Shown: in pieces, positions 1 to 24,602 of the stretch
How the letters are laid out: the number at the start of each line of letters is the position of its first letter
How positions within the stretch are numbered: position 1 is the first letter of the stretch
Assembly (NCBI RefSeq): GCF_005405385.1
Contig: NZ_BJDY01000002.1
Coordinates: 558,001-622,000 of the forward strand
Length of the DNA: 64,000 nt
From: Lactiplantibacillus mudanjiangensis
Lineage (GTDB): Bacteria > Bacillota > Bacilli > Lactobacillales > Lactobacillaceae
Direction: 5' to 3'
Position numbers and translations under genes: made by a program
Notes under the pieces: model-generated
Databases searched by the model: none
What the model was told of the DNA's origin: nothing
The model's input: only the letters and a program-made list of their open reading frames with translations

Positions 1-565
1 GCTCATAACCCGTCAAACTCTGCACAAAAATCGTGGCAAGTTCCGTTGATAACGTGGTTAAAAACTCACGTAATTCGGTAACAATCATCGCCACTAAATC
101 GGCAGAACGCCATCGACGAAACCACCCTTTGACGACCGCTTGAATCCCTGGATCAGTCGTGACCGGATAGTATCGTTTTGCCTGATGACTATATTCCGAC
201 ACTACCTGTAAGGCCAATTGACTTAACGCGGTGAATCGACGCACATCTACTTGTTGAAATTGTTGCCATGCAACGGGTTGATATAAGGTTTTCTTCAACT
301 TGACTTGCTGAGCTTCACCGGCGGGGGTTAATTGCCAATAGCCTGCTTGCGGCGCGGTTAACCAACCAGCTTCAACTAAGGTTTGCGCTGCGGCTTCAAA
401 TTTTTCTAGTGGGACCCCATGCCAGCTATCCAACCATGCTAACTCCTGATAAGTTAACCCGGCAAACAACGTTGACACCGTTCGGCGACCACGACAAACA
501 TTATAAACAGCCTTAGCCCGTCGCGGTTCCGTCGCAAACAACCCTAATAAATAATCAGCAAACAA
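1..565 (-). CDS. YpbB-like helix-turn-helix protein of the recQ operon (C-terminus beyond window)
   Basis: Open frame of at least 188 codons running off the left edge. I chose a TTG start at 563-565 because AAAGGA lies about nine bases upstream; the nearby GTG in another frame meets a stop after nine codons. The N-terminal part, with a K/R-rich CRGRRTVSTL stretch near residue 24 and a winged-helix-like LTPAGEAQQ near residue 80, resembles Bacillus YpbB, which sits next to recQ. The recQ link is inference, since the neighbour lies outside the window. The gene's upstream region is occupied by the repeat element at 628-1169. Family assignment is moderate; it may simply be an uncharacterised DNA-binding protein. 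Confidence 0.55.
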   Translation of the reverse strand, partial: MFADYLLGLFATEPRRAKAVYNVCRGRRTVSTLFAGLTYQELAWLDSWHGVPLEKFEAAAQTLVEAGWLTAPQAGYWQLTPAGEAQQVKLKKTLYQPVAWQQFQQVDVRRFTALSQLALQVVSEYSHQAKRYYPVTTDPGIQAVVKGWFRRWRSADLVAMIVTELREFLTTLSTELATIFVQSLTGYE

Positions 566-627
566 ACCGCCACGTCCTTTCGAAAATGAATACTATTAGC
601 ATAGCATGTTCACTGATAAGACGCGAC

Positions 628-1169
628 CTAAAGGTTGAAAGTTAAGTATGACGGTAAAAGTCTTACTAGAATTGACTTAAGTCACGCTAAATTAGTCACC
701 TACGCCAGCCAGTGATTCAGCCGGCTGTGGGGACCGGCTCCAGCCAAAGTGCGGGCTGCCACCTCGCTTTTGCGCCTAGCAAAAACCGCTAGTCTCAAAA
801 GTCGTCCATATCGTAAAGCCCGGGAAAATCACCCGAACTAACGATACTTTCACGGCCGGCGCCATCACTGGCTGACTTCGGTTAATTTGTTATGTCAATT
901 TAGCGATCGCTATTATAACCGAAAGTGCCTCCACATTGAGCCCAGCCGTGGGAGTCTCTTAACGATTTATTGCTTAGAGACTGGCGCTTTTGAAACACGA
1001 TTTTGGTGGTTCAAAACGACGGTTCAGACCGCTTTTTAGCTGAAGCGGTCCGCCCACAGTGTTCCGGCTCAAGGTGGGCGAACGTTAGGTGGCAAGTATG
1101 ACTTGTTTTGATCGATGAATGTTCATCAGATCAACGATTATTGCTAAAAAGGTAGCTTTCAACCTTTAG
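628..1169 (+). mobile_element. MITE-like non-coding element, copy 1 (complete, with target duplication)
   Basis: A 542-bp element with terminal inverted repeats CTAAAGGTTGAAAGTTA (628-644) and TAGCTTTCAACCTTTAG (1153-1169), 16 of 17 bases complementary. It is flanked by a perfect 8-bp direct repeat GACGCGAC at 620-627 and 1170-1177, as expected of a target duplication. It encodes no protein of useful length. Inside are paired arms: 706-729 with 851-874 (20 of 24 positions match), CGCCCAC 1051-1057 with GTGGGCG 1074-1080, and several smaller hairpins. Two shorter or degraded relatives lie at 6934-7380 and 24255-24602. It sits between the ribU terminator and the YpbB-like gene. No transposase is visible, so mobilisation would have to be in trans. 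Family unknown to me. Confidence 0.8.
887..916 (+). promoter_or_regulatory. Promoter-like sequence inside repeat copy 1
   Basis: TTGTTA (887-892), an 18-base spacer and TATTAT (911-916) on the plus strand. The same arrangement is kept in copy 2 as TTGCTA (7170-7175), 18 bases, TATTAT (7194-7199). It would start an RNA running into the structured right half of the element. The minus strand also reads TATAAT at 912-917, but without a good -35. Promoter activity is inference. Confidence 0.35.
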
Positions 1170-1177
1170 GACGCGAC

Positions 1178-1219
1178 TAAAAAACGGTACTAATCACTGT
1201 CTCAGCAATTAGTACCGTT
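1178..1219 (-). terminator. Intrinsic terminator of ribU
   Basis: Twelve-base perfect inverted repeat AACGGTACTAAT (1183-1194) and ATTAGTACCGTT (1208-1219). On the minus strand it is followed by a run of T (1178-1184). It lies 11 bp after the ribU stop, and the right target duplication of repeat copy 1 abuts its T-run. Confidence 0.88.
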
Positions 1220-1230
1220 GAATATTTTCG

Positions 1231-1821
1231 TTAATGTGAAACGCGGCTTAATAATTGATTTTGCTTACTCAACCATTTGGCCAATCGATTATAGACCAGC
1301 CAGAACACATTGCCGACCAATAATCCTTTGATTAGATTGAATGGCACGACGGCAACTAGCACTAAATAGTTTAGTGAGAAGCCAAGCTTCATGCCCATGA
1401 CTTGCATATAAAATGGCAAAACAAAAGTTAAATTGGCTAACGACTCAATAATGACTAATCCAATTGTCGCTAACGTAATGGCCAACGGCATCCGAAATTT
1501 AGGATCACCGTGGTAATAACGTAAGACTAACGCAAACGCAATAATCAAAATTGCCGAGCCCATGAAACTTGCCAATGAACCGATCAAGTCTGGTAACGCA
1601 AAGCCCATCGTTGCTGAATGAAGGACTAATTTAACGATGGTAATCGCAAAAGCACCACCCATCCCATACAAAAATAGCCCAATCAAAATCGGAATATCCG
1701 AAAAATCAATCTTCATCCATGACGCAATTGGGATGATCGGAAATTCGAGTAACATCAAAATATAAGCACACGCGCCGAGTAAGGCAATGCCCACTAGTCG
1801 GCGTAACGTTGTTTGTTGCAT
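1231..1821 (-). CDS. ribU: Riboflavin ECF transporter substrate-binding (S) protein RibU
   Basis: 196-residue, very hydrophobic protein with about six membrane segments, the size and shape of ECF S-components. It would bind riboflavin in the membrane and work with a shared EcfAA'T energising module encoded elsewhere. The assignment rests mainly on the FMN riboswitch and its terminator directly upstream (1868-2061), the usual arrangement for ribU in lactobacilli. The start ATG has GGAGGG seven bases upstream. The gene is monocistronic, with its own terminator at 1178-1219. It marks dependence on imported riboflavin; no rib biosynthesis genes other than ribT are present in the window. Confidence 0.9.
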   Translation of the reverse strand: MQQTTLRRLVGIALLGACAYILMLLEFPIIPIASWMKIDFSDIPILIGLFLYGMGGAFAITIVKLVLHSATMGFALPDLIGSLASFMGSAILIIAFALVLRYYHGDPKFRMPLAITLATIGLVIIESLANLTFVLPFYMQVMGMKLGFSLNYLVLVAVVPFNLIKGLLVGNVFWLVYNRLAKWLSKQNQLLSRVSH

Positions 1822-1867
1822 AACGCACCCTCCTATGGGTCATCTTCAACTGAACCGCATTGCCATA

Positions 1868-1923
1868 AAAATTAAAATAGCTCGCCTTGAAAACGTTTTC
1901 ACGTCATCAGGGCGGGCTATTTG
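1868..1923 (-). terminator. Riboswitch expression-platform terminator ahead of ribU
   Basis: Long hairpin on the minus strand: AAATAGCCCGCCCTGA pairs with TCAAGGCGAGCTATTT, followed by a T-rich stretch (ATTTTTA) before the ribU ribosome binding site. It lies between the FMN aptamer and ribU, so it would be the off-state terminator formed when FMN is bound. Confidence 0.85.
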
Positions 1924-1946
1924 CATTTTCATGTCAAATAAGCTCG

Positions 1947-2061
1947 ATCTTCTTCATACCAGACTTTAACTGTCGGCTTTGGAATTACACCAAATCACTA
2001 TCAAAAAACATAGGTCGCGGGCTTTAACCGCCGGTCGGGAATTACACCCTGCCCTGAAGAT
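1947..2061 (-). promoter_or_regulatory. FMN riboswitch (RFN element)
   Basis: On the minus strand the segment opens with ATCTTCAGGGCAGGGTG, continues with the conserved AATTCCCGACCGGCGGT and GGTGTAATTCCAAAGCCGAC blocks, and closes with GAAGAAGAT, which pairs with the opening ATCTTC as the P1 stem. These are the hallmark RFN blocks. A TATAAT at 2099-2104 could be the -10 of its promoter; the -35 is not convincing. Binding of FMN is expected to favour the terminator at 1868-1923 and lower ribU expression. Confidence 0.95.
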
Positions 2062-2120
2062 GAACCAATATAAAATTTTTACAATTACATCTTAACCAAT
2101 TATAACTAATATTGCAAGCG

Positions 2121-2837
2121 TTATCTTTCACCCTTTAATTTACTAATTTCAATCGGCTTAAGTTTCCGGTACTCACCAGGCTGTAAACTCTGCAAATCTA
2201 AGACACCATAACGTTCCCGTTTTAACTTCGTGACCGGATGTCCAATCGCTGCTAGCATCTTTTTAACTTGGTGATTATGGCCTTCATGAATGGTCAATTG
2301 AACCAAAGCATTATTCTTTTTATGGTCACTATCCATCAAATTAGACTTGGCTGGTGCCGTTTTACGACCATCAATTTCAACCCCTAACCGCAACTGCTTC
2401 AGATCAGCATTGGTCGGTACCCCTTCAACTTTCGCTAAATACGTCTTATTGACTTCATATTTAGGATGCGTTAAACGGTTCGCTAAGGCCCCATCATTGG
2501 TCATAATTAATAAACCTGACGTGTCATAATCTAAACGGCCAACCGGATAAATCCGTTCGGGAACATCCGCAAAGAAGTCCATCACCGTCTTACGGCCCTT
2601 TTCATCGTGAACCGTGGTTACAACCCCACGTGGTTTATAAAATAAATAATAAACCAATTTTTCAGCCGTCAATGGTAACCCATTAACTTCAATATGATCG
2701 CTAGGTTCAACCTTAACACCAAGTTCAGTCACGGTTTTACCGTTAACTTTGACATAACCGGTTGTAATCAAGACTTCTGATTTACGTCGGGATGCGACAC
2801 CGGCTTCGGCCATGACTTTTTGTAATCGTTCTGCCAT
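2121..2837 (-). CDS. rluB: Ribosomal large-subunit pseudouridine synthase RluB
   Basis: 238-residue RsuA/RluB-family pseudouridine synthase acting on 23S rRNA. An S4 RNA-binding domain occupies residues 1-60 (ERLQKVMAEAGVASRR), followed by the catalytic domain with GRLDYDTSGLLIMTNDG near residue 100, whose Asp is the family nucleophile. Length is normal for the family. The start ATG follows GAGG by eight bases, inside the end of scpB, with the two genes two bases apart. It is the last gene of the cvfB-xerD-ribT-scpA-scpB-rluB run. Specificity for RluB rather than another RsuA-family enzyme is inferred from the scpAB context. Confidence 0.93.
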   Translation of the reverse strand: MAERLQKVMAEAGVASRRKSEVLITTGYVKVNGKTVTELGVKVEPSDHIEVNGLPLTAEKLVYYLFYKPRGVVTTVHDEKGRKTVMDFFADVPERIYPVGRLDYDTSGLLIMTNDGALANRLTHPKYEVNKTYLAKVEGVPTNADLKQLRLGVEIDGRKTAPAKSNLMDSDHKKNNALVQLTIHEGHNHQVKKMLAAIGHPVTKLKRERYGVLDLQSLQPGEYRKLKPIEISKLKGER

Positions 2838-2839
2838 CT

Positions 2840-3451
2840 TTATTCCTCACTATCTTGATCAGGGACTGCACCCTGTAATTTATCTTGAAACGCTGTTAAA
2901 AAGAGATCTGTTTCAGGCGCTGGATTTTCAGTATCGGTCAACGCGGCTAAATCAATTGCTGGCAAGTCGTCTAGCGACTTCAACCCGAAATAATCTAAAA
3001 ACAATTCAGTCGTCCCGTACAAAATTGGTCGACCGGGTTCATTTAATCGACCCGTTTCGGTAACCAATTGTCGCAATACCAGCTTTTGAATGGTTGACCC
3101 ACTTTGTACACCACGAATTTCATCGATTTCAATCCGCGTCAATGGTTGTCGATAGGCAATAATCGCCAAAACTTCCAACGATGCTTGCGATAAACTCGTC
3201 GTCAACGGCGCTTCAAAGTATTTCTTCAACACGGGAGCCACGGTTGCTTTAGTGGCCAATCGATACGTGTTAGCCGTCGACAAGACAACTAACGCGCAGT
3301 CCGTATCCTGCTCATACTTCGTTGCTAAAGTGGTCACCAATGTCGTAATCGCTGGTTTTGCAAAACCAGTGGCATTTTCAATTTCAGCAACGGTAATCCC
3401 CTCATCGCCCGCTACAAATAATAAGGCTTCAATTTGTTCAATGTTCGTCAT
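2840..3451 (-). CDS. scpB: Segregation and condensation protein ScpB
   Basis: 203-residue ScpB, the winged-helix subunit that binds ScpA and SMC in the bacterial condensin complex for chromosome segregation. Features include [16 protein letters not shown] at the N-terminus and [29 protein letters not shown] in the second winged-helix domain, followed by an acidic C-terminal tail. I start at the ATG at 3449-3451, nine bases after AGG; an in-frame ATG at 3460 sits directly on that site. It follows scpA by ten bases and precedes rluB by two, so the three are probably cotranscribed. Confidence 0.95.
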
Positions 3452-6833: not shown

Positions 6834-6933
6834 ACGACACCTCTCGTGATACTAATTGTAACTGAAAACGCCAGCGATAGCGAGGCGCCACCCGATTTAA
6901 TTCCAGTTTTCTCTTAATGTATTTGATAGATAT

Positions 6934-7380
6934 AATGACAGGAACCTTAACAATACTGATCTGGAGTCATGCTAAATTGTCACCTGAGCCAGCCAGTGAT
7001 TCTGCCGGCTGTGGGGACCGGTTCCAGCCAAAGGACGGGCTTCCACCTCGCTTTCAAGCCCAGCAAAAAACGCTAGTCTCAAAAGGCGTCCACATCGTAA
7101 GCCCGGTAAAATCATCCGGACTAACGATGTTTTCACGGCCGGCGCCATCACTAGCTGACTCCGGTTAGTTTGCTATATCAATTTAGCGATCACTATTATA
7201 ACCGAGAGTGAGTCCACATTGAGCCCAGCCGTGGGAGGCTCTTAGCGATTTATCGCTTAGAGCCTGGCGTTTTTGAAACACTTTTTTTGTGGTTCAAAAC
7301 GACGATTCAGACCGCACTTTGGCTGAATCGGTCCGCCCACAGCGTTCCGGCTCAAAGTGGGCGAACGGTAGGTGGCAAGT
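6934..7380 (+). repeat. MITE-like non-coding element, copy 2 (ends degraded)
   Basis: Same internal sequence and order as copy 1, with the same paired arms (6990-7013 with 7134-7157) and the same promoter-like TTGCTA-18-TATTAT. The terminal inverted repeats found in copy 1 are not recognisable: similarity fades near AATGACAGG on the left and after GGTGGCAAGT at 7380 on the right. The orientation is the same as in copy 1. It lies between the DUF441 gene's 5' end and the pyk terminator. The small open frames across it differ from copy 1 and are not credible genes. Confidence 0.85.
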
Positions 7381-7424
7381 AAAAGTACTTTTAGTCAATA
7401 AACATCTGTCCTAGTTATGTATAT

Positions 7425-24254: not shown

Positions 24255-24602
24255 TTAAAGGTTGAAAGCTAAATATGACCGTAGCAGTCAATCAATATGA
24301 CTAAATTAGCCATTTATGCTAGTCCGCGATTCTGTCCTGACTCCGGTCGTATTACGAGCACAAATCGACCTAGTGATCACTAATATAACCGAGTGATCAC
24401 TAATATAACCGAGTGAGCTCACATTGAGCCCAGCCGTGGGAACTCTTAGCGATTTTATCGCTTAGAGTTCGGCGCTTTTAAAACGCGGTGTTGGCGGTTT
24501 AAAACAACGGTTCAGACCGCTCTTTGGCTGAACCGGTCCTTCCCACAGCGTTCCGGCCCAATGTGGGCGAACGGAGAGGTGGCAAATTGGTCTACCTTTA
24601 AA
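24255..24602 (+). repeat. MITE-like non-coding element, copy 3 (internally deleted)
   Basis: Left end TTAAAGGTTGAAAGCTA (24255-24271) matches the terminal repeat of copy 1 and has the copy-1 right-end form GCTA. The right end keeps only ACCTTTAA (24595-24602). The left half, which forms the long paired arm in copies 1 and 2, is missing. The right half (from CACATTGAGCCCAGCCGTGGG) is well kept. A 20-bp unit GTGATCACTAATATAACCGA is duplicated in tandem at 24373-24392 and 24393-24412 where the other copies have their promoter-like segment. No flanking direct repeat was found. Confidence 0.85.

Follow-up and report, generated by a model that had tools for sequence, protein, structure and literature searches.

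What is the 542-bp non-coding segment at 628-1169 in Lactiplantibacillus mudanjiangensis, how did it reach its place behind a RibU-like gene, and what does it carry? The window, by which we mean the whole stretch of 64,000 nucleotides that was analysed, has the segment lying behind both this gene (1231-1821, minus strand) and a terminator-like hairpin; the gene was named by eye and from the FMN riboswitch upstream of it (1943-2065, minus strand, 107.9 bits). Its closest named ribU records are those of L. songbeiensis (92%), L. dongliensis (91%) and L. daowaiensis (90%), and our genome labels (G000 for the own genome, and so on) are paired with species names by ribU identity only.

The element and its copies

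A preliminary description had proposed a MITE-like element from an 8-bp duplication, GACGCGAC, on both sides of 17-bp inverted ends that are alike at 16 of 17 positions, with no useful protein frame between them. Direct reading bears out all three points, the longest ORF listed within the element being 50 aa. The features of the window are these:

620-627, no strand: target-site duplication, left copy, GACGCGAC; read in the sequence, and genome G006, whose site is empty, has GACGCGA there as a lone near-copy
628-644, plus strand: left terminal inverted repeat, CTAAAGGTTGAAAGTTA; read in the sequence and common to the IS4-type IS of locus L097 (genome G008)
688-889, sense on the plus strand: foldable unit A; core at 722-860 by covariance model (105.7 bits), outer limits by eye
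918-1094, sense on the minus strand: foldable unit B; core at 941-1062 by covariance model (58.7 bits), outer limits by eye
1153-1169, minus strand: right terminal inverted repeat, complement of CTAAAGGTTGAAAGCTA; read in the sequence
1170-1177, no strand: target-site duplication, right copy, GACGCGAC; read in the sequence
6926-7419, plus strand: second copy, with decayed ends and with both units, at 7006-7143 (plus) and 7224-7345 (minus); G006 site empty
24256-24601, plus strand: third copy, internally shortened; unit B kept at 24429-24551 (minus); G006 site empty

The two damaged copies and the make-up of the interior, two inverted copies of one foldable unit, were absent from the preliminary description. 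Searching window positions 1-3000 against Rfam brought only the FMN riboswitch to the cut-off, with no family for the element or the window copy of the unit, and the element had no match in plasmid and phage collections.

The own genome (3.29 Mb, 13 contigs) holds at least 40 scored matches to the element, itself included, the others being 82-90% identical, and many of the 30 copies retrieved from it have intact ends. At up to one mismatch, this genome contains the 14-bp end CTAAAGGTTGAAAG 63 + 69 (132) times and a reversed control pattern not at all. Contig C2 (798 kb), which was wholly read, carries 31 element loci, a portion of them truncated, and scaling up from it suggests a genome total of about 130 elements. 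None of the 31 lies inside a longer called ORF; six overlap short ORFs, which are contained in the element or extend slightly beyond it, and the flanking ORFs are convergent at 15 loci, tandem at 15 and divergent at one. Internally deleted short forms of 201-293 bp with ends still recognisable stand at G000:C2:496414-496706, 386871-387071 and 756471-756750.

Short direct repeats accompany other copies as well. Among 35 two-ended copies (C2, loci L003-L030 and L094-L096, duplicates removed), 23 have perfect flush repeats, of 7 bp in nine, 8 bp in ten and 9 bp in four, and 12 have no perfect repeat of 5-10 bp. When left flanks are paired with right flanks from other copies, the chance level is 0.088, 0.029 and 0.0 for 7, 8 and 9 bp, or about 0.1 expected overall. 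The commonest length is therefore the 8 bp first described, within a range of 7-9 bp. Over 15 copies with at least seven of eight positions matching, the target duplications are 73% A+T.

Relatives show that the site can be empty. The ribU locus of each of the 21 genus genomes was searched with a profile, and a unit within 1.5 kb of ribU came up in G000 and G007 alone, 19 of the 20 other genomes showing none there. At the site of the window element, G006, which is 78-84% identical to G000 across long aligned blocks, carries the target a single time, as the near-copy GACGCGA, and no element, and the two other window elements are likewise missing from it. In G007, a single unit sits behind ribU and before a terminator-like hairpin, without the CTAAAGGTTGAAAGTTA-type ends; this looks like an independent event. 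The stretches read contain three weak units in G017 and none in G008, G006 or G020. At two of these three places the G008 alignment lacks the segment; at one of the two, what look by eye like outer parts of the unit remain in G008, so that we take this case for a deletion instead of an empty site. Two G017 places (L241:10736-10831 and L243:1192-1287) have a short, weakly matching variant of the unit, most of the segment being missing from the aligned DNA of G008; the outer parts apparently retained in G008 belong to the first of them.

A foldable unit inside and outside the element

The interior of the element consists of two copies of one unit of about 200 bp that face each other, and the fold of this unit is branched and strongly covarying. 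A first alignment (A1), of 50 units from this and other species, has 28 pairs, 23 of them with double changes; 112 unit hits were reduced to 76 by length and end filters and removal of duplicates, and the 50 were chosen around those, some with shifted ends. The covariance model was built from A1, and two larger alignments, A2 (84 units) and A3 (94 units), take all matches of their searches. In A2, which covers five species and, like the other unit alignments, was fitted to the structure model and is hence biased towards it, 94.0% of cells are paired and 31 of 34 pairs show double changes; its covariation score of 0.538 compares with at most 0.097 when slid, and none of 500 shuffles scored as high.

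The unit is far more widespread than the window suggests. Covariance-model searches found it in 19 of the 21 genus genomes and zero times in two, with at least 150 units in G000, from 128 to at least 150 in nine others (at least 150 in five of them) and 3-72 in nine more. An order-wide sample of 295 genomes, searched with stricter filters under which weak matches are lost, had 11 positives from five of 74 genera; all belong to the same family, and they include G000 and two others of its genus. No viral contig contained the one exact unit pattern that was searched for.

The unit can also stand by itself, and one species has it within ends unrelated to those of the window element. That species is G007, where two elements, 352 and 358 bp long, are bounded by inverted ends of the sequence GGGTCTTTCCA... 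or close to it and by perfect 8-bp duplications:

L219:7367-7718 and L224:18369-18726 (G007): different MITE type, one unit each

The 23-bp end of this second type, at up to two mismatches, occurs 19 times in G007 and not once in the other 20 genomes or in the control; the 12-bp motif alone is noisy, with 22 control hits in the same stretches, and two of five listed end pairs have a duplication. At least two end systems, unrelated to each other, thus carry the unit. No source transposase was found for the second (GGGTCTTTCC) ends, and the sole ISL3 transposase found in G007 was rejected as the source, its locus having no close match to them.

Orientation, and the level at which pairing is kept

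Where single units stand next to genes, they are strongly oriented. In four species, 29 of 33 lie behind a same-strand gene. Because convergent contexts fit either orientation, only tandem contexts are informative on gene direction, and in these the unit is sense in 16 of 16 cases in a smaller set and in 34 of 35 in a larger set that partly includes it. Two-unit groups face inward in 21 of 23 cases and outward in none. Of 66 single units, 57 also follow the leading strand as defined by GC skew, with 20 of 24 doing so in convergent contexts and three of seven in divergent ones. The tandem units divide into 33 sense-leading, one sense-lagging and one antisense-leading, and 42 of 182 tandem regions are lagging. 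For these counts, genes are ORFs of at least 90 codons, not annotation, and the stretches were selected for high-scoring units; the smaller set uses 83 of 84 matches (the weakest, L227:6571, excluded), and the need for a called gene on both sides leaves 33 of 34 and 49 of 54 single units counted. An orientation effect is present, with gene direction and replication direction confounded in tandem contexts, and it could stem from a role in 3' untranslated regions as well as from replication-linked insertion or selection.

The unit could be a functional RNA of 3' untranslated regions, acting as an mRNA stabiliser or as a processing or termination signal, with the MITE only spreading it and hosts keeping the sense copies. 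We regard this as unlikely, though a serious candidate. The tandem counts fit it, as do the 29 units behind same-strand genes (13 of these are convergent and would fit in either orientation), the inward-facing pairs, which give each convergent gene a sense unit, and the strong covariation. However, terminator-like sites precede the unit in 15 and follow it in 17 of 33 cases, the unit is found at ribU in only two of 21 species, and the window copy belongs to no Rfam family.

The kind of base change also weighs against an RNA. On an RNA strand, G-U pairs and A-C does not, whereas in double-stranded DNA the two are the same kind of change viewed from either strand. Cells with G-U and with A-C number 47:49 in A1, 63:64 in A2 and 61:52 in A3, the last from G007, and single units alone give 27:24, so that G-U is not clearly above A-C. 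By contrast, a tRNA control from the same sequence set gives 13:1, for the acceptor and T stems only of 20 distinct tRNAs, at the offset picked to maximise pairing. The similar frequency of G-U and A-C in the units suggests that pairing is kept at the DNA level.

Folding on the two strands bears on the same question. The whole element folds beyond shuffles on both, with z of -9.3 on the plus strand (620-1177) and, on the minus strand (628-1169), -11.4 as RNA and -8.5 as DNA. For four of five single unit cores z differs little between the strands; the exception, which counts against a DNA-level account, is window unit B (-5.3 sense versus -2.5 antisense). We read the base changes and these strand data as neutral decay of individual copies, pairing having been kept at the DNA level in source lineages.

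With a confidence that stops just short of even, we favour pairing of the unit being kept at the DNA level, either by hairpin repair linked to replication or because single-stranded DNA has to fold, and not as one RNA strand. Template switching at hairpins is one known process by which pairing is maintained in DNA, as described in the available text of PMC8794818, and it may act on these units. A DNA-level account must ascribe the 34:1 orientation in tandem contexts to replication direction, target choice or selection, which are largely confounded.

Replication direction could also enter through the way in which single units spread, if they moved via single-stranded DNA at the fork, for example by a Y1/HUH transposase as in IS200/IS605 or REP elements. 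The leading-strand preference speaks for such spread, above all in convergent contexts, in which the direction of the genes is not enough to fix it; divergent contexts, at three to four, show nothing. Yet the Y1 transposase was not found in the unit-rich genomes G004, G016, G014, G020 and G008, is only broken in unit-rich G007, and is intact in G001 and G002, both of which lack the unit, and in G007 two elements with one unit each show the inverted ends and 8-bp duplications that DDE transposition would leave. We consider fork-linked spread improbable, and reject a Y1 transposase as mover of the single units on its distribution.

The source transposon and what the element means

The exact ends of the element are found in 12 of the 21 genus genomes. 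The preliminary description had named an IS with the same ends as something to look for, and two genus genomes hold an intact one. In G008 (locus L097), the ends stand 1565 bp apart around an intact 451-aa ORF, which scores 481.6 bits (cut-off 250) against the NCBIfam model NF049925 for IS4 family transposases and also matches Pfam DDE_5 and DDE_Tnp_1; a YREK motif (YGRRWQIECYFKVAK) was read by eye in its translation. The second intact IS, in G020, encodes a transposase with 56% amino acid identity to that of L097 and has the ends and a flush 7-bp duplication, ATAGGAG. The L097 IS apparently lies within an ABC-transporter-like ORF (noted at L097:1-1245, G008) and is without a clean target duplication, perhaps as the result of a rearrangement.

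The transposase is in pieces in G019, G011 and G017, and relatives of it are on named plasmid records of L. plantarum and L. fermentum. In G000 only a relic was found, at about G000:C2:537758-538150 (in L083), with residues 1-51 and 422-451 side by side and the IS right end present; the copies in this genome therefore look orphaned.

Within the IS4 family, the available text of PMC2266710 gives the ISPepr1 subgroup a size of 1500-1600, duplications of 7-8 bp, AT-rich targets, 5'-CT ends and the end consensus YT-AA-YTT---A. By these descriptions the L097 IS resembles ISPepr1 in its length, its YREK motif and its 5'-CT ends, and the MITE copies do so in their AT-rich duplications of 7-9 bp, the four 9-bp cases going beyond the published 7-8 (PMC2266710). 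Compared by hand with the end consensus, the ends match at eight of nine positions and depart from it at position 7, which is G instead of Y. Unlike ISPepr1-type ISs, the MITE has no transposase and only the ends in common with them: its identity with the L097 IS is confined to the outermost 18 bp on the left and 14 bp on the right, so simple internal deletion of that IS does not account for it. Mobilisation by ISL3, IS6 or IS256, which the preliminary description had offered as examples and in which 8-bp duplications also occur, fits the duplication length but is highly implausible, since the intact ISs with these ends are of IS4 type (NF049925) and the 7-9-bp duplications agree with ISPepr1; against ISL3 there is also the search of G000, in which no ISL3 transposase was found.

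Many copies with their own duplications, empty sites in a sister species and an intact IS with the same ends uphold the first proposal of a transposed, non-autonomous element, and neither observation that the preliminary description had named as refuting it was made. Jointly, the evidence makes it very probable that this is an IS4/ISPepr1-type MITE, moved in trans and orphaned here, with two inward-facing foldable units whose pairing is kept at the DNA level, this last part being held by itself as tentatively as above; mobilisation in trans and orphan status are what we infer from the ends, the IS and the relic. An IS4-family, ISPepr1-type transposase would move the element in trans via its 17-bp ends, and insertion would make 7-9-bp AT-rich target duplications in intergenic DNA, mostly beside at least one gene end. 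The cargo would be two inward-facing copies of a foldable unit more widespread than the MITE itself, found alone, paired or inside other ends, and the G000 copies, with only a transposase relic found, would probably now merely decay.

As a mobile element, then, the window element is an ordinary kind of thing, newly assigned to the IS4/ISPepr1-type MITEs. Among the matches listed from the open-licence PMC literature, we found no description of it in lactobacilli. By description only, it recalls the bcr1 repeats of the Bacillus cereus group, a group-specific structured mobile repeat. It also resembles Correia, QMITE2, ERIC, BOX and RUP, as these are described in the available text of the review PMC10969869, in being short, non-coding, intergenic and multicopy, with stably folding predicted transcripts and end-less decayed copies; the same descriptions set it apart from them in its two inward-facing branched units, its dense covariation, and the presence of the same unit alone and under a second end type.

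The foldable unit is the less ordinary part of the element, and its function is unproven. A bolder and more doubtful proposal is that it represents a new class of structured DNA repeat, spread genome-wide in Lactobacillaceae, with a four-way-junction fold, DNA-level pairing and replication-oriented placement at gene ends, which two or more unrelated transposon end systems have taken up as a passenger. The present analysis places a so far unnamed repeat of lactobacilli in a transposon family. Covariation of this strength is commonly regarded as proving a functional RNA, yet here it comes without the G-U signature of RNA, and with more than 100 copies of the unit per genome in ten species of the genus, maintenance at the DNA or the RNA level is directly testable. 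If the proposal of a new class is true, the unit would spread as a passenger module and not as a property of one IS.
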